A stretch of DNA of 64,000 nt, taken from Epilithonimonas mollis (lineage in GTDB: Bacteria > Bacteroidota > Bacteroidia > Flavobacteriales > Weeksellaceae). Below the pieces are notes generated by a model that worked only from the letters and a program-made list of their open reading frames with translations, was not told the origin of the DNA and ran no database searches. A program made the translations under genes and the position numbers. Shown in pieces: positions 56,885 through 63,204 of the stretch. The stretch spans positions 124,001-188,000 of the forward strand of contig NZ_FRAM01000001.1 in the NCBI RefSeq assembly GCF_900142325.1, written 5' to 3'. The first letter of the stretch is position 1. Each line of letters starts with the position of its first letter.

Positions 56885-57178
56885 TCATAAAAGATCTTCC
56901 GGCACAGAAATATCATTCTTTTTCATGAACTCAACCAGATCATTATATTTTCTTTCATAATGACCTCCTCCACATTGATCAGAAATACTGCAAATTTCCG
57001 AAGGCTTAATATTCAATATTGCAGATATTTTAGTTAAAATCTCAAGATTGATCCTGACCTTGGAATTCTCGATATCCGAATACGATTTTTGAGAAATTCC
57101 CATTTCAAAAGCCATATATTCTTGAGTATAGTCGTTGTTTCTTCTTATTTTCCTGATGTTTTCACCGCAAAATTTCAT
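56885..57178 (-). CDS. XRE-family transcriptional regulator
   Basis: 97 residues with one cro/C1-type helix-turn-helix (residues 7-60: IRKIRRNNDYTQEYMAFEMGISQKSYSDIENSK in pieces, LEILTKISAILNIKPSEI) and a 35-residue tail with CGGGHYERKYNDLVEF. It is divergent from the cbb3 oxidase operon, 176 bp apart, so regulating that operon is plausible but unproven. Confidence 0.85.
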   Translation of the reverse strand: MKFCGENIRKIRRNNDYTQEYMAFEMGISQKSYSDIENSKVRINLEILTKISAILNIKPSEICSISDQCGGGHYERKYNDLVEFMKKNDISVPEDLL

Positions 57179-57354: not shown

Positions 57355-59634
57355 ATGGAGACACAAAAATTTCATTATGACAATAGTATTGTCAGAGCAT
57401 TTCTCTATGCTACAGTTACATTTGGAATTATCGGTTTTATTTTAGGACTTACAGCAGCACTGATGCTATTTTATCCGGAATTGCCCGAATTCTTATTCGG
57501 GACGGATGATACAACTATCCAGAGTTTAAGAAGCGGCAATATTCAGGGATTGATTAATTCGCAGGGGGCTTTGGGATTCGGAAGGATCAGGATGCTTCAT
57601 ACGAGTGCTGTTATCTTTGCCTTTGTATGCAACTCTTTTTTCTGTGGTTCCTATTACAGCATGCAGAGACTGCTAAAAACCCGGATGTTCAGTGATACAT
57701 TATCATGGATTCATTTTTGGACATGGCAGCTGATGATCATTGCTGTGGTTATTACTTTTTTAATGGGAATAAATACCTCGAAAGAATACGCCGAACACGA
57801 GTGGCCTATTGATATCTTGATAACAATATCATGGGTGATTTTCGGAATTAATATGTTCGGAACGATTATAAAAAGAAGAGTAAGACATCTTTATGTTGCG
57901 ATTTGGTTTTATATTGGAACCTGGATTGCAGTTGCAATGCTTCACATTTTCAATAACCTGGAAGTTCCTTTATCTTTCACAAGCTGGAAATCATATTCTG
58001 CTTATGCAGGTGTAAAAGATGCCCTGGTACAATGGTGGTACGGACATAATGCAGTTGCCTTTGTATTAACTACGCCGGTTTTGGGATTGATGTATTATTT
58101 CCTTCCCAAAGCTGCTAACCGACCTGTATTTTCTTATAAACTATCAATAATTCACTTCTGGTCACTGATTTTTGTTTATCTATGGGCAGGCCCTCATCAT
58201 TTACAGTATACAGCTTTGCCAGCTTGGGCACAGGCTGTAGGTACAGGTTTTTCGGTGATGCTGATTGCGCCATCGTGGGGCGGGATGCTGAATGGCCTTT
58301 TAACATTGAGAGGTGCATGGGATAAGGTAAGAGAAAACCCTATACTCAAATTCTTTGTAGTCGCTGTCACCTGTTATGGTATGGCTACGTTTGAGGGACC
58401 TCTTCTGGCAACCAAATCTTTAAATAAGATAGGACATTATACAGATTGGGTAATCGGACACGTTCACTTAGGTGCACTTGGATGGAACGGATTCATGGCT
58501 TTTGGTGTAGTATATTATCTGGTTCCTGTTATGTGGAGGACAGAACTCTGGTCCAAAAAAATGGCAAACTGGCACTTCTGGCTGGGTACTCTGGGAATTA
58601 TTTTCTACGCAGTGCCATTATACATCTCCGGATTTACGCAGGGATTGATGTGGAAACAGTTTAATCCGGACGGAACATTGGTCTATAAAAACTGGCTGGA
58701 TACAGTTACAGCGATATTGCCATATTTCAAAATGAGATTTTTAGGTGGCATACTTTATCTCGGCGGGGCGATTCTTATGATAGTTAATGTTTATAAGACA
58801 ATCCGAGCCGGTTCGTTTCAAAAGAATGTTCCTGCGGAAGCACCAGCTTTGGCAAACGTCAACGGAGCAAGAAAACAGGGCGAAGGCTTCCACCTCTGGC
58901 TGGAGAGAACACCGCTTTTATTATCCATTTTAGCATTCGTAGCCATAGCAATCGGCGGAATAGTTGAAATTATACCAACGCTTACCATGAGCAGTAATGT
59001 TCCACAGATATCGGCCGTAAAACCATATTCGCCACTCGAGCTGGAAGGCAGAGATCTTTACATTCGGGAAGGTTGTAACTCCTGTCACTCACAGATGATC
59101 AGACCCTTCCGGGATGAAGTGATGAGATTCGATGGAAAAAACGGACAGTATTCGAAAGCTGGAGAATTCGTTTATGACAGGCCATTCCTTTGGGGCTCCA
59201 AAAGAACTGGTCCCGATCTTCAGCGAGAGGGTCAAAGAAACCCGGACTCATGGCATTTCAAGCATATGTATAATCCAAGGATTACTTCTGCCGGATCTAT
59301 CATGCCTCGTTTTCCTTGGCTCATAACCAATAAGCTGGATCGTTCCCAGATGACAGATAAGCTAAAATTAATGAAGAACAGCTTCGATATTCCTTATACA
59401 AAAGCAGAAATTGATTCTGCAGACCAATGGGCTGACAACCAGTCAAAAGCCATCGTAAAAAGGATATTCTCCGAATCTGCAGATTTGAAAGTCCAGATAG
59501 AAAAAGAAAGAATGGCAAAAGGATCAGAATTCATTCCACTCGAAAAAAGAGAAATCATCGCAATGATCGCTTATTTGCAAAGACTGGGAACTGATATCAA
59601 AACTGCTGATATCAAAACTGCAAGTATCAAATAA
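57355..59634 (+). CDS. ccoN: cbb3-type cytochrome c oxidase, fused subunits I and II (CcoN-CcoO)
   Basis: High-affinity oxygen reductase of the inner membrane. Residues about 1-480 are CcoN with twelve or so TM segments and all haem/copper ligands: RMLHTSAVIF (low-spin haem His), YGHNAVAF (CuB His), GPHHLQYT (CuB His pair), and YTDWVIGHVHLGALGW with Tyr and two His. Residues about 500-750 are CcoO with the mono-haem EGCNSCHSQ and axial Met in SIMPRFPWL. The fusion is the normal Bacteroidota form. The end is a 15-bp micro-tandem (DIKTADIKTASIK). CcoP follows after 21 bp. CcoS, CcoG and the CcoI copper ATPase are not adjacent. Confidence 0.95.
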   Translation: METQKFHYDNSIVRAFLYATVTFGIIGFILGLTAALMLFYPELPEFLFGTDDTTIQSLRSGNIQGLINSQGALGFGRIRMLHTSAVIFAFVCNSFFCGSYYSMQRLLKTRMFSDTLSWIHFWTWQLMIIAVVITFLMGINTSKEYAEHEWPIDILITISWVIFGINMFGTIIKRRVRHLYVAIWFYIGTWIAVAMLHIFNNLEVPLSFTSWKSYSAYAGVKDALVQWWYGHNAVAFVLTTPVLGLMYYFLPKAANRPVFSYKLSIIHFWSLIFVYLWAGPHHLQYTALPAWAQAVGTGFSVMLIAPSWGGMLNGLLTLRGAWDKVRENPILKFFVVAVTCYGMATFEGPLLATKSLNKIGHYTDWVIGHVHLGALGWNGFMAFGVVYYLVPVMWRTELWSKKMANWHFWLGTLGIIFYAVPLYISGFTQGLMWKQFNPDGTLVYKNWLDTVTAILPYFKMRFLGGILYLGGAILMIVNVYKTIRAGSFQKNVPAEAPALANVNGARKQGEGFHLWLERTPLLLSILAFVAIAIGGIVEIIPTLTMSSNVPQISAVKPYSPLELEGRDLYIREGCNSCHSQMIRPFRDEVMRFDGKNGQYSKAGEFVYDRPFLWGSKRTGPDLQREGQRNPDSWHFKHMYNPRITSAGSIMPRFPWLITNKLDRSQMTDKLKLMKNSFDIPYTKAEIDSADQWADNQSKAIVKRIFSESADLKVQIEKERMAKGSEFIPLEKREIIAMIAYLQRLGTDIKTADIKTASIK

Positions 59635-59655: not shown

Positions 59656-60531
59656 ATGAAAACTAGAACTCCGATTTCAGTTGGCATTGCTGTCACAATT
59701 TGCATCAACTTTTTGATATTTGAATTATCTGACAGCAAAGGTTACATGACTACTTCATCTTTCTGGGGACTTCTTGTAATTCTTATTTTCCTTTTCTTAA
59801 TTGCTAATTCTATCGGAGATCTGGTTGAAAATGCAAATTTCAAACTCTTGTCTGATGAGGAAAAGCAGCAGTATTTAAAAGAAAAAGCAATGCCTTATTA
59901 TCAGAAGATATGGAATTCATTTACTAAAAAACAGTCCAAGGTCGATGAAAATAAGATCCTTATCGATCACGGTTTCGATGGCATCACGGAGCTTGACAAT
60001 GCATTGCCAAAATGGTGGACAGGATTATTTTATGTAACCATTATTTATTGTGTCGTCTACCTTGTAGCTTTTTCCTTTACTGATTATGCCCATCCCGACG
60101 TAGAATACCTGGATGAAGCCAAAACGCAGCTGGCCTCTATTAAAGAGTATGAAAAAACAGCACCTTCTGTCAATATGGAAAATGCCGTTTACAGTGCCGA
60201 TAATATTGCAGAAGGTGAACAGATTTTCAAGACCAACTGTATCTCCTGCCATTCGGATGGTGGAAAGGGCGGTATCGGTCCGAATCTTACTGATAACAAA
60301 TGGATCAACATCAAACAGAAAAGTCTTTTCAAAAATGTTTTCTGGATGCTGGAAAACGGATCGCCAAATAATCCTGCAATGCGCGCTTTTATAAAAGAAG
60401 GTATCATCACAGGAAGAGATGCTGAAAAAGTTGCGGCCTATATCTATCACATCAATCAGGAAAAAACACCAATTACTGAAGCACAGGGCGGTGCTGCTCC
60501 GCAAGGAGATGAGGCGCACTGGCAGGAATAA
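59656..60531 (+). CDS. ccoP: cbb3-type oxidase, CcoP-like di-domain cytochrome c subunit
   Basis: Electron-entry subunit of the oxidase. Two hydrophobic segments (SVGIAVTICINFLIF and ITELDNALPKWWTGLFYVTIIYCVVYL, in parts), then a class I cytochrome c domain with a single haem site CISCHSDGG (Cys195-Cys198-His199) and GIGPNLTDNKW; axial Met expected in NPAMRAFI. Classic proteobacterial CcoP has two haems; one is usual in Flavobacteriia. ATG 21 bp after ccoNO; presumably one operon. Confidence 0.93.
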   Translation: MKTRTPISVGIAVTICINFLIFELSDSKGYMTTSSFWGLLVILIFLFLIANSIGDLVENANFKLLSDEEKQQYLKEKAMPYYQKIWNSFTKKQSKVDENKILIDHGFDGITELDNALPKWWTGLFYVTIIYCVVYLVAFSFTDYAHPDVEYLDEAKTQLASIKEYEKTAPSVNMENAVYSADNIAEGEQIFKTNCISCHSDGGKGGIGPNLTDNKWINIKQKSLFKNVFWMLENGSPNNPAMRAFIKEGIITGRDAEKVAAYIYHINQEKTPITEAQGGAAPQGDEAHWQE

Positions 60532-60615
60532 TATATCCATTACATACAACATTGCTAATTTTTGGATCCGGCGGTTTGTTATACAGATCGTTGGTTCCAA
60601 TTTTATTTATAAATA

Positions 60616-62385
60616 ATGATTAAAAAACCTTTACACAGCTTTCACATTCCTGTAATGGGACTTGCCTACACTATAGATTCGCCGATACGTGTAGCACAAT
60701 TTGGAATATCATCCGTGATTTCAATAATTGATGATGAGATCACGGAAAAAATGCGAAACTTCTACAGTCAGAAATTTAATCTGGATTATTCGGCTATTAC
60801 AATAAAAGCGGAAGATTATCGCTCAAAAAGAATTACAGCCTACCTGAACATGGTGGATCATATAGTGGAAGAAAAATTCCGGGCTTTCAAAGACGATCTG
60901 ATTCATAAAAAAGAAGTTTTGAAAGATTTTGTCGATATGCTTCCCAACACTTCAGGCATTAAAAAAAATCTGCAGACTTTCCTGAATCAGAAAAACATAT
61001 ATTCTACTCTGAAAAATTTCGTGGACACTCATCTGTCGCCAGGCAGTATCGATGTCAACATCATGACAAAAGTAGATAAGGACAATTTTAAGAAAAATGA
61101 ACAGCTGCCCTTGATCTACAATGATGCACATGCATCTTTGAGGGGATTTGCAAAGAGTAAACTGTCTGCATCCATGGTTCTTTCTGCAGGGATGAATCCA
61201 AGATTATACAGTTACATAGAACAGTTTGAAGATTTTTACCCGGACACGAATAATCAAATCAGAAAAAAAATCATCCTGAAAGTCAGCGATTTTCGTTCCG
61301 CAATGATACAGGGAAACTTTTTGGCAAAAAAAGGCCTGTGGGTTTCAGAATACAGAATCGAATCAGGGCTGAACTGTGGCGGACATGCGTTTGCAACGGA
61401 TGGTTTGCTTTTAGGACCGATTCTGGAAGAATTCAAACAACGAAAAGATGAATTGACAGAAACAGCACATTCCCTGATGATCAATGCATTACAAACCAAA
61501 TCAAGACATTTTCCGTCTACACCGCTTGAAACCAAAATAACAGTCCAGGGCGGCGTCGGGACAGCTGATGAGCACCAATTTCTTCTGTCCAATTATAGTG
61601 TAGACAGTGTTGGCTGGGGATCGCCATTCTTACTCGTTCCGGAAGCGACATCTGTCGATCACGAAACCAGAAAACTTCTTGCCAATGCTAAAGAAGATGA
61701 CTTTTATCTCAGCAACCTGTCTCCATTGGGCGTACTCTTCAATACTGTAAAAGGAACTACAAATGATTATGTAAGACAATCAAAAGCAATCAAAAACAAA
61801 TACGGCAGTTCTTGTCCGAAAAAACTTTTGGCGCTCAGCAAAGAATATTCGCCGGAAGGAATCTGTACAGCGTCGAGAAAATACCAGACTCTGAAACTGG
61901 AAGAATTAGAAAAACAGAAATCAGAGATGAATTCTGAACAGATTGCTAACAGGAAAAAGAAGATCACAGAAAAAGCTTGTCTTTGTGTTGGTCTTGTGAA
62001 TGCCGCTTATATAGAAAATGATATTGAAATGAAAGGTGAAAATCAAGGTGTGGTAGTTTGTCCAGGTCCTAATCTGGCCTACTTTGATAAAGAAATTTCC
62101 TTATCGAAAATGATACAGCATATCTATGGGAACACCAATGTTCTTCGAGATTCTTACCGCCCGAATATGTTTATCAACGAATTGAAAATGTATGTTGACT
62201 TTCTGAAAAAAGGAATGCAGGAATCTTTTTCTGAAAACGAAAAAAAGTGGAATACATTCAGAAAAAATCTTTTGGAAGGTATCGATTATTATCAGAATCT
62301 ATTTAAAAATACGTCTTTTTTCCAAAAAGAAATTAAAGATATTGAACAGGAGCTTCAAAAATATAAACTCTTACTGGTGCAATAA
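60616..62385 (+). CDS. Large TIM-barrel-like protein (nitronate monooxygenase/PfaD-related), unknown
   Basis: 589 residues. The text recalls FMN-dependent TIM-barrel enzymes of the nitronate monooxygenase/FabK/PfaD group: N-terminal HIPVMGLAYTIDSPIRVAQF, glycine site NCGGHAFATDG (about 252-262), VQGGVGTADEHQFLL (about 310-324) and WGSPFLLVPEATS, equivalent to 'GTRFL.. PEA'. About 150 extra residues and four Cys near the C-terminus (SCPKKLL, GICTAS, KACLCVG) could hold an Fe-S cluster. It lies 84 bp behind ccoP on the same strand, where maturation genes usually stand, suggesting a redox role linked to respiration. The family is inferred; FMN binding is not proven. Confidence 0.5.
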   Translation: MIKKPLHSFHIPVMGLAYTIDSPIRVAQFGISSVISIIDDEITEKMRNFYSQKFNLDYSAITIKAEDYRSKRITAYLNMVDHIVEEKFRAFKDDLIHKKEVLKDFVDMLPNTSGIKKNLQTFLNQKNIYSTLKNFVDTHLSPGSIDVNIMTKVDKDNFKKNEQLPLIYNDAHASLRGFAKSKLSASMVLSAGMNPRLYSYIEQFEDFYPDTNNQIRKKIILKVSDFRSAMIQGNFLAKKGLWVSEYRIESGLNCGGHAFATDGLLLGPILEEFKQRKDELTETAHSLMINALQTKSRHFPSTPLETKITVQGGVGTADEHQFLLSNYSVDSVGWGSPFLLVPEATSVDHETRKLLANAKEDDFYLSNLSPLGVLFNTVKGTTNDYVRQSKAIKNKYGSSCPKKLLALSKEYSPEGICTASRKYQTLKLEELEKQKSEMNSEQIANRKKKITEKACLCVGLVNAAYIENDIEMKGENQGVVVCPGPNLAYFDKEISLSKMIQHIYGNTNVLRDSYRPNMFINELKMYVDFLKKGMQESFSENEKKWNTFRKNLLEGIDYYQNLFKNTSFFQKEIKDIEQELQKYKLLLVQ

Positions 62386-62397
62386 AACCGGATTAAA

Positions 62398-63204
62398 TTA
62401 TCGGATGACAGGATTAAGATATTCTTCAATTACTTCCAAAACACCAAATTCATCATTATTAGCGGCTAGAAAATTAGCCGCTTTTTTTACGGACGGATGG
62501 GCATTTTCCATCGCGTATGAGAATTTGGAATTTTTAAGCATTTCGATATCATTCATATAATCGCCGAAAGCCATTGTTTGTGAAGGAAGGATATTCAGCT
62601 TTTTTTGAATAATTTCCAGAGCTTTTCCTTTATTGATATTCCTGTTCATAACATCAACCCAATATTTTCCGGAAACGACAACCTCAAGATTCTCATCTTC
62701 AAAATGTTTAAGATAGGGATAGATATTTTTTTCCGAACCTTCCGGATGGTAAACAGCAATCTTAAAAGCGTCATCATCAACTTCCAAAGTCAGGTCATCA
62801 ACTTTCTGATTTTCTGTGTAATATCTGGTGAAATAATTGACAAATGTTTCATCGTCACTTTCATAATAAGCTTTTTTCTTGGCAGAAAGCACTGCTCTTG
62901 CCCCGGGAATTCTCCGAATTGTTTTAATAATATCGATAACAAACTGATGCTCTAATTTGTCTGCAAACAATTCCTCATTTTTATAAACCACATAACCACC
63001 GTTTTCCGCAATAAAACCGATCTCGCTTTCAATTTCCGTAAAATATTGGGTAATTCCGGGCATTTGTCTTCCGCTTGCAGGCACAAAAAGTATATTTCTT
63101 TTTTTTAATTCTTCGTAGATGGCTGGAAAATCCGGACTCATTTCATATTCAGAATTAAGAAAAGTCCCATCCATATCAGTGACAATCAGTTTAATGTCGT
63201 TCAT
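62398..63204 (-). CDS. Cof-type HAD-IIB sugar-phosphate phosphatase
   Basis: Haloacid-dehalogenase-like phosphatase acting on sugar phosphates or similar. Motif I VTDMDGTFLNS (about 8-18), motif II PASGRQ, motif III region NKGKALEIIQKKL with Lys, motif IV MAFGDYMNDIEML. IIB cap between. Length 268 is standard. Its 3' coding end contains the terminator of the convergent gene at 62461-62488. Confidence 0.9.
   Translation of the reverse strand: MNDIKLIVTDMDGTFLNSEYEMSPDFPAIYEELKKRNILFVPASGRQMPGITQYFTEIESEIGFIAENGGYVVYKNEELFADKLEHQFVIDIIKTIRRIPGARAVLSAKKKAYYESDDETFVNYFTRYYTENQKVDDLTLEVDDDAFKIAVYHPEGSEKNIYPYLKHFEDENLEVVVSGKYWVDVMNRNINKGKALEIIQKKLNILPSQTMAFGDYMNDIEMLKNSKFSYAMENAHPSVKKAANFLAANNDEFGVLEVIEEYLNPVIR
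62461..62488 (+). terminator. Intrinsic terminator of the TIM-barrel gene, inside the HAD coding sequence
   Basis: AGCGGCTA, loop of 6, TAGCCGCT, T7 on the plus strand: an 8-bp GC-rich stem 76 bp after the stop of the plus-strand gene and within codons of the convergent HAD gene. Confidence 0.82.

Follow-up and report, generated by a model that had tools for sequence, protein, structure and literature searches.

A FabX-like TIM-barrel protein encoded behind a cbb3 oxidase operon of Epilithonimonas mollis, a candidate enzyme of oxygen-independent unsaturated fatty acid synthesis

In the 64,000-nucleotide stretch of Epilithonimonas mollis DNA analysed here (the window), the cytochrome oxidase genes ccoNO and ccoP are followed on the same strand by an ORF of 589 codons with an ATG start, whose product is hereafter named P0001 (Table 1). 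The first-pass annotation had placed this ORF 84 bp behind ccoP, and the distance was confirmed by the end of ccoP at 60531 and the start codon at 60616. A terminator-like stem and an inverted repeat were looked for in this gap and neither was reported, so that, judging from the sequence, transcription of the P0001 gene by read-through from ccoNO-ccoP is possible. The gene on the 3' side is convergent (62398-63204, minus strand). Two ccoN-type matches, both above the cbb3 cut-off, were detected in the genome (G000), the other one lying on a different contig (G000:C5:393977-395431, locus L222), and the window is thus the site of a second cbb3 oxidase. Assembly-type genes and a gene for a Crp-type regulator adjoin the L222 cluster; no assembly genes were seen beside ccoNO-ccoP of the window. 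A small Xre-type regulator gene (56885-57178, minus strand) is divergent from ccoNO and is kept in two loci of P0001 homologues (L006 and L038); its product is a possible regulator of the oxidase operon in this group.

Table 1. Features of the P0001 gene and its upstream neighbours (positions in the window)
Feature	Position	Strand	Evidence
ccoNO fusion (COX1 + FixO) of the second cbb3 oxidase, upstream neighbour	57355..59634	+	Pfam
ccoP (FixP_N, cytochrome c), direct upstream neighbour	59656..60531	+	Pfam
Gap between ccoP and the P0001 gene, 84 bp	60532..60615	+	
Gene of the 589-aa FabX-like TIM-barrel protein P0001	60616..62385	+	ORF list, homologues, structure
N148 = FabX N99 (FMN contact)	61057..61059	+	invariant; paired via L143
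C254-G255-G256-H257 = FabX S179..H182 (catalytic His)	61375..61386	+	invariant 83/83
QGGVGT, FMN-binding strand = FabX G220-G221 region	61546..61563	+	alignment
GWGSPF, last barrel strand	61612..61629	+	paired by motif
C400, candidate Fe-S ligand	61813..61815	+	invariant; aligns with C319 of the 420-aa family
C417, candidate Fe-S ligand	61864..61866	+	invariant; aligns with C332 of the 420-aa family
C455-L-C457, candidate Fe-S ligands	61978..61986	+	invariant; align with C358/C360 of the 420-aa family
C482 of CPGPN	62059..62061	+	invariant; by eye at FabX F339 (FMN contact)

Searches with P0001 returned no Pfam family at E ≤ 10, including no match to the nitronate monooxygenase family NMO (PF03060), and no NCBIfam family, neither FabK (TIGR03151) nor PfaD (TIGR02814). 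When 45 members of the P0001 family were compared with Pfam, NMO was absent from the best 25 of the 61 families listed, and neither a sequence search nor a family-profile search found a relative of P0001 in the PDB. No paper on the family was found by literature search; on the basis of this and of the Pfam and NCBIfam searches, the family is considered undescribed. A weak PHROG match (E 0.0046) was set aside, and plasmid records yielded no match to the family. A scan of genome contigs confirmed 95 homologues, from which 80 loci were kept, with best segments 47-84% identical. Among the sources of these loci are Chryseobacterium, Epilithonimonas, Flavobacterium and other members of the Bacteroidota, together with metagenome-assembled genomes (MAGs) labelled Chlorobi, Chlorobiota and Ignavibacteria. 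The family is present in 112 of 296 genomes of the phylum, counting the window genome itself and G346 with a C-terminal piece only, and in 21 of 59 relatives, counting the window genome and G016, which holds fragments only (L101, L105, L107). The 80 loci and 112 genomes place the P0001 ORF far beyond chance.

The closest homologue, at 84%, was found in Epilithonimonas hispanica (L038, 10001-11781), where it is divided between two overlapping ORFs with the split near codon 463. The same identities and the same split gene recur in G017 (L104, L106), and in both cases either the gene is broken or the record is in error. Two full-length copies are carried by each of G014 and G021, and an intact copy is accompanied by a decayed second copy in G151. 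It seems that the gene is often gained and lost.

Conservation was read from an alignment of 45 rows, made of 44 dereplicated full-length proteins from the loci L001-L080 and the window protein, and from a wider set of 83 representatives of 118 collected sequences. The motifs GGHAF, QGGVGTADE and WGSPFLLVPEA, to which the first-pass annotation had drawn attention, are all present and fall mostly in invariant or near-invariant columns of the 45-row alignment. N148, E249, G255/G256, H257 and G312/G313 are invariant in 83/83 representatives, as are all six cysteines of P0001, namely C254 near the catalytic His and five in the C-terminal part (C400, C417, C455, C457 and C482), which had initially been described as having four.

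The AlphaFold2 model of P0001 built with the 45 rows (pLDDT 88.2, pTM 0.89) is a TIM barrel. Foldseek ranked FabX of Helicobacter pylori first (E 2.2e-9), followed by PfaD, trans-acting enoyl reductases, FabK and NMO. With VIA-align 2, FabX (PDB 7e1q, 9lt5) was again the best match, with Z 22.9 and an rmsd of 3.2 Å over 330 aligned residues at 18% identity; the best FabK reached Z 20.9, entries named nitroalkane/nitropropane dioxygenase 19.7 and 19.5, and PfaD 18.4, and the NMO-type fold encountered was 2gjl (Z 19.5, 4.9 Å over 310). These results support the early proposal of a flavoprotein fold of the NMO/PfaD group, and the TIM barrel on which that proposal had been staked is indeed predicted. 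FabK, nitronate monooxygenase and PfaD share the TIM-barrel FMN fold and the GGH motif with P0001, but their structural match is weaker than that of FabX, and P0001 lacks a Pfam NMO match; to our knowledge they have no invariant cysteine cluster.

The Z scores of FabK and PfaD would also suit an enoyl-ACP reductase of the FabK kind or a PfaD-like trans-acting reductase working with NAD(P)H, and the FabK alignments reach further toward the C-terminus of P0001 (rows ending at 572-579) than that of FabX (506). Since only range ends are given, coverage of the cysteine part by itself does not choose between FabX and FabK. Such a reductase is nevertheless quite improbable, considering that FabX lies 2 Z units above, that a separate FabK-like protein is encoded in the window genome (TIGR03151, 308.9 bits, below the curated cut-off of 453.1), and that the cluster domain of FabX is suggested, in a passage of PMC8626469, to take the place of the NAD(P)H motif.

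According to the same passages, FabX is an acyl-ACP dehydrogenase/isomerase with FMN and a [4Fe-4S] cluster, in which C300, C304, C308 and C320 are the cluster ligands, H182 is the catalytic base, and N99, E175, S179, G180, G220, G221, Q240, T243 and F339-G341 are among the FMN contacts (PMC8626469). A flavoprotein with an Fe-S site, regarded as new in the first-pass annotation, thus already exists within the same fold. P0001 has in common with FabX the catalytic His and a cysteine-rich part after the barrel, and by sequence mapping most FMN-contact positions appear to be kept as well. It differs in length (589 versus 363 aa), in an added helical insert between predicted strands 2 and 3, in its longer C-terminus, and in a cysteine pattern of C..C..CLC..C instead of CX3CX3CX11C. 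Based on sequence alignments and motifs rather than superposed coordinates, the counterparts of the FabX sites in P0001 are N148, E249, C254, G255, H257, G312, G313, G333 and S336. Q240 of FabX is replaced by G333, and position 336 (FabX T243) is occupied by S in 58 of the 83 representatives and by T in the other 25. The FabX stretch from F339 can be laid by eye without gaps on P0001 from C482, and the same offset of 143 follows from the VIA-align 2 range ends of 506 and 363; this placement is taken as a lead.

A direct sequence link from the P0001 family to FabX, FabK or NMO was not obtained, with profile scores of 21-27 that were reached by 2-22 of 182 decoys (unrelated ORFs). Ten genomes were searched with Pfam NMO. 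The search yielded a close FabX homologue, L143 of G294 (E 3e-71 to FabX, pattern CX3CX3CX7C), and a 420-aa protein in G205, G084 and G063. FabX is the best PDB match of the 420-aa protein L147 (E 9e-27), and an alignment of 18 dereplicated members of this 420-aa family matched L143 with 99.95% probability (E 1.5e-37). In the comparison with the P0001-family profile, six 420-aa-family members scored 37-51, which none of the 182 decoys reached (best decoy 34.6), and L143 itself was beaten by two decoys. As the direct link fails, only the 420-aa family bridges the P0001 family to FabX. The profile alignment of the two families is collinear and pairs H257 with H204, C400 with C319, C417 with C332, C455 with C358 and C457 with C360. 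Its probability was 18%, rising to 61% (E 8e-5) with wider alignments and ranging from 28 to 85% for the P0001-family profile against single 420-aa-family members; no usable global profile alignment was obtained between the P0001 family and either L143 or the 420-aa family.

The 420-aa family (L146-L148, L171-L200) is shorter than P0001 and has an extra CWTC pair, its C-terminal cysteines following the order C..C..CLC..CWTC, each in 18/18 members. Aligned with L143, its C332 falls on the first FabX ligand and its CLC (C360) on the last, in a gappy stretch of low confidence. By this indirect route, C417 may weakly be paired with the FabX ligand C300 and C457 with C320; the ligand pattern CX3CX3CX11C is absent from P0001, and C304 and C308 lack a clear counterpart. 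An assignment of the CLC motif to the FabX flavin contact was withdrawn, as the profile alignment of the 420-aa family with L143 does not bear it out. As far as these sequence comparisons go, the P0001 family is nearest to a FabX-like branch, and its set of cysteines differs from that of FabX.

An Fe-S site in the C-terminal part, as had been proposed, is plausible, this part being cysteine-rich and its cysteines, the candidate ligands, invariant. The cysteines might instead bind zinc or act as structural or redox thiols, in keeping with a spacing unlike that of FabX, with the lack of a match to any known Fe-S motif, and with the poor model obtained when the C-terminal part was folded alone (pLDDT 72, pTM 0.44). 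This is considered unlikely, since four have aligned counterparts among the cysteines of the 420-aa family, which is related to FabX, and the FabX cluster sits in the same part of the fold.

The neighbourhood of the gene was examined in 119 loci with markers that were picked after the loci had been read and were named by eye. Loci with a marker at most three genes away, versus those with one at least five genes away, numbered 9 and 1 for ccoNO, 8 and 3 for norB-like genes, 7 and 3 each for nadA and nadB, 6 and 2 for fixI, 6 and 4 for RIC, 5 and 1 for hemN, 5 and 3 for Rrf2, 4 and 2 for nrdD, 4 and 5 for Crp/Fnr, 4 and 6 for nosY, and 1 and 4 for trHb, out of gene totals of 676 near and 763 far; no enrichment close to the gene is seen for nosY, Crp/Fnr or trHb. 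At least one marker lies within three genes in 32/119 loci, counts that are lowered by 38 Flavobacterium-type loci with another common context. Pfam agreed with 7 of the 8 markers checked (COX1, FixP, ScdA/hemerythrin, radical SAM, FAD-binding, Rrf2, Crp), and the hemN neighbours in L203, L204 and L207 coincide with matches above the HemN cut-off. The name of an "NnrS-like" marker (L204), for which no Pfam match was found, was dropped. In a Pfam count over 48 dereplicated loci, COX1-family proteins made up 10/179 genes within two places versus 2/141 at five to six places. The common theme of the neighbours is a broader oxygen-limited gene set, not respiration alone.

These counts bear on two further readings. 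If P0001 served the cbb3 oxidase specifically, as its partner or assembly factor, this would explain why the gene directly follows ccoP in the window, L005, L006 and L038 and why ccoNO is enriched nearby, and the fear that the gene might never neighbour ccoNOP elsewhere proved unfounded. Yet ccoNO was not found within three genes in 110/119 loci, and the other cco cluster of the window genome (L222) has no P0001-family copy, which makes such a role highly improbable. The specifically respiratory function first envisaged for P0001 is not supported, given these 110 loci and FabX as the closest fold; a protein not dedicated to respiration is the best reading. A redox enzyme against nitric oxide or nitrosative stress, NMO-like and acting beside Nor and RIC proteins, would fit the NMO fold and the nearby norB-like, RIC, nosY and Rrf2 genes. 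Four of the eight norB-like loci are however ccoNO loci, so that the two markers overlap, both of the only two ccoN-type matches in the window genome exceed the cbb3 cut-off, many loci have cbb3, NadAB or HemN genes only, and the NMO match is weaker than that of FabX; this reading is therefore improbable. P0001 is regarded as a FabX-type variant and not as a respiratory flavoprotein.

A single link to fatty acids was seen among the neighbours: an acyl-CoA dehydrogenase gene lies directly 3' of the P0001-family gene in L065 (7889-9028), L075 and L076 (11911-13050) and three genes off in L073, with Pfam run on L065 and L075. L065, L075 and L076 come from MAGs labelled Chlorobi or Chlorobiota. 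The genes of quinolinate synthesis, nadA and nadB, recur as neighbours in 7/119 loci (L039, L073, L215, L236-L239).

Across the 296 genomes, matches above the cut-off were found in 203 for anaerobic HemN, in 172 for the PF00487 desaturase and in 19 for NrdD; the 62 genomes with the 420-aa family were left out of the comparisons of these three proteins with the P0001 family. HemN is present in 93/112 carriers of the P0001 family versus 50/122 non-carriers (p 2e-11), and the odds ratio pooled within 11 taxonomic families is 34; by family, carriers and non-carriers have it in 20/26 versus 0/9 genomes in f37, and carriers in 0/4 in f36. NrdD genomes carry the P0001 family in 9 of 12 cases, an association that is not significant (p 0.07), and none was detected between the P0001 family and absence of PF00487 (p 0.14), which is present in 87/112 carriers. 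The window genome has no PF00487 match. Moreover, among the 23 genomes of the genus, 11 lack both an intact P0001-family copy and a PF00487 match better than 1e-27, so that unsaturated fatty acids there, if made, need another source; four of these 11 have a weaker 250-263-aa PF00487 match above the cut-off.

The strong co-occurrence with HemN, the nadA, nadB and hemN neighbours and the absence of an association with desaturase loss are what would be expected of an O2-independent flavin dehydrogenase that replaces some other oxygen-dependent oxidase, in haem, NAD or vitamin B6 synthesis, and not desaturation. The best fold matches are all acyl-ACP enzymes (FabX, FabK and PfaD), and we know of no haem or NAD enzyme with a FabX-type fold, so that this replacement, too, appears rather unlikely. 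The fold, the family, the invariant residues and the low-oxygen gene company of P0001 are supported by computation.

Regulation by oxygen was approached by scanning for every 4-base palindromic half-site at spacers of 2-10, which gave the relaxed motif TGAYN4RTCA. This motif forms the core of the FNR/DNR box, given as TTGATnnnnATCAA in a passage of PMC1274295. It precedes 26 of 65 dereplicated P0001-family members (from 103 with an intergenic start) versus 59 of 736 neighbouring genes, which were not dereplicated (p 5e-11, with the motif found and tested on overlapping sets). Spacers of 3, 5 and 6 gave 0-1/65 and five permuted half-sites 0-3/65; many of the 59 box-bearing control genes resemble, by eye, RIC, HemN, FixI, Crp/Fnr, ccoN or universal-stress genes. 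The FNR consensus TTGA-N6-TCAA was found in 0/118 upstream regions. The FNR-type box is absent upstream of the P0001 gene in the window and in L001-L006 and L038, and likewise upstream of ccoNO where this is present in these loci; in the window, L006 and L038, ccoNO is preceded by the divergent Xre-type gene.

Considering the FabX fold, the company of HemN and the frequent FNR-type box, the simplest explanation is that P0001 stands in, under oxygen shortage, for a step of lipid synthesis that otherwise depends on oxygen, in the way that the FabX homologue NGO1024 does in Neisseria. With about even confidence, it is proposed to be a FabX/UfaA-like enzyme that makes unsaturated fatty acids independently of O2; we infer its occupancy by FMN and Fe-S, the acyl-ACP substrate, the product and the electron acceptor. 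P0001 would be an FMN enzyme in which a FabX-type TIM barrel is extended by a helical C-terminal part, where invariant cysteines from among C400, C417, C455, C457 and C482 would hold an iron-sulfur cluster near the flavin. His257 and FMN would remove two hydrogens from a medium-chain acyl-ACP, the double bond would then move to cis-3, and elongation of the chain would lead to an unsaturated fatty acid. The Fe-S cluster would pass the electrons on to an acceptor, probably one other than O2. Cells would draw on the enzyme at oxygen levels that no longer sustain desaturases, alongside HemN, the cbb3 oxidase and denitrification genes. The proposal is weakest in three respects: the cysteines are spaced differently from those of FabX, the family is not correlated with the loss of desaturase, and both an intact copy and a PF00487 match better than 1e-27 are missing from 11 of the 23 genus genomes.

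UfaA (NGO1024) of Neisseria gonorrhoeae is described as an anaerobically induced FabX relative. The Neisseria gene is reported as induced without air, with values of 9.6 and 7.9 in the anaerobic table of PMC3032703, and is stated to be essential for anaerobic unsaturated fatty acid synthesis in PMC11300592. The latter also says that FabX uses O2 and describes the Neisseria homologue's acceptor as unknown. The P0001 family, with its 112/296 genomes, six invariant cysteines and no Pfam or NCBIfam match, offers a concrete protein for the question of electron disposal in FabX relatives. In a more far-reaching and more tentative version, which falls somewhat short of even confidence, this large unnamed flavo-iron-sulfur family would be the oxygen-independent unsaturated fatty acid enzyme of facultatively anaerobic Bacteroidota; its ligand set unlike that of FabX and the invariant C482 at the position of the flavin-contacting Phe would direct electrons to an acceptor other than O2, and the family, HemN and NrdD together would make up a single switch set replacing oxygen-dependent syntheses. 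If true, the fluid membranes of Bacteroidota in oxygen-poor niches could be explained.

The 420-aa family is itself present in 62/296 genomes, and none of these also carries the P0001 family. As it is confined to two taxonomic families, this non-overlap is an exclusion by lineage. No NCBIfam cut-off was reached by the three members scanned, and two further matches near 1e-30 were found among the 296 genomes, of which the one checked (G294) is FabX-like. The two taxonomic families that hold the 420-aa family are almost without desaturase, PF00487 exceeding the cut-off in 1/62 of the genomes with this protein.
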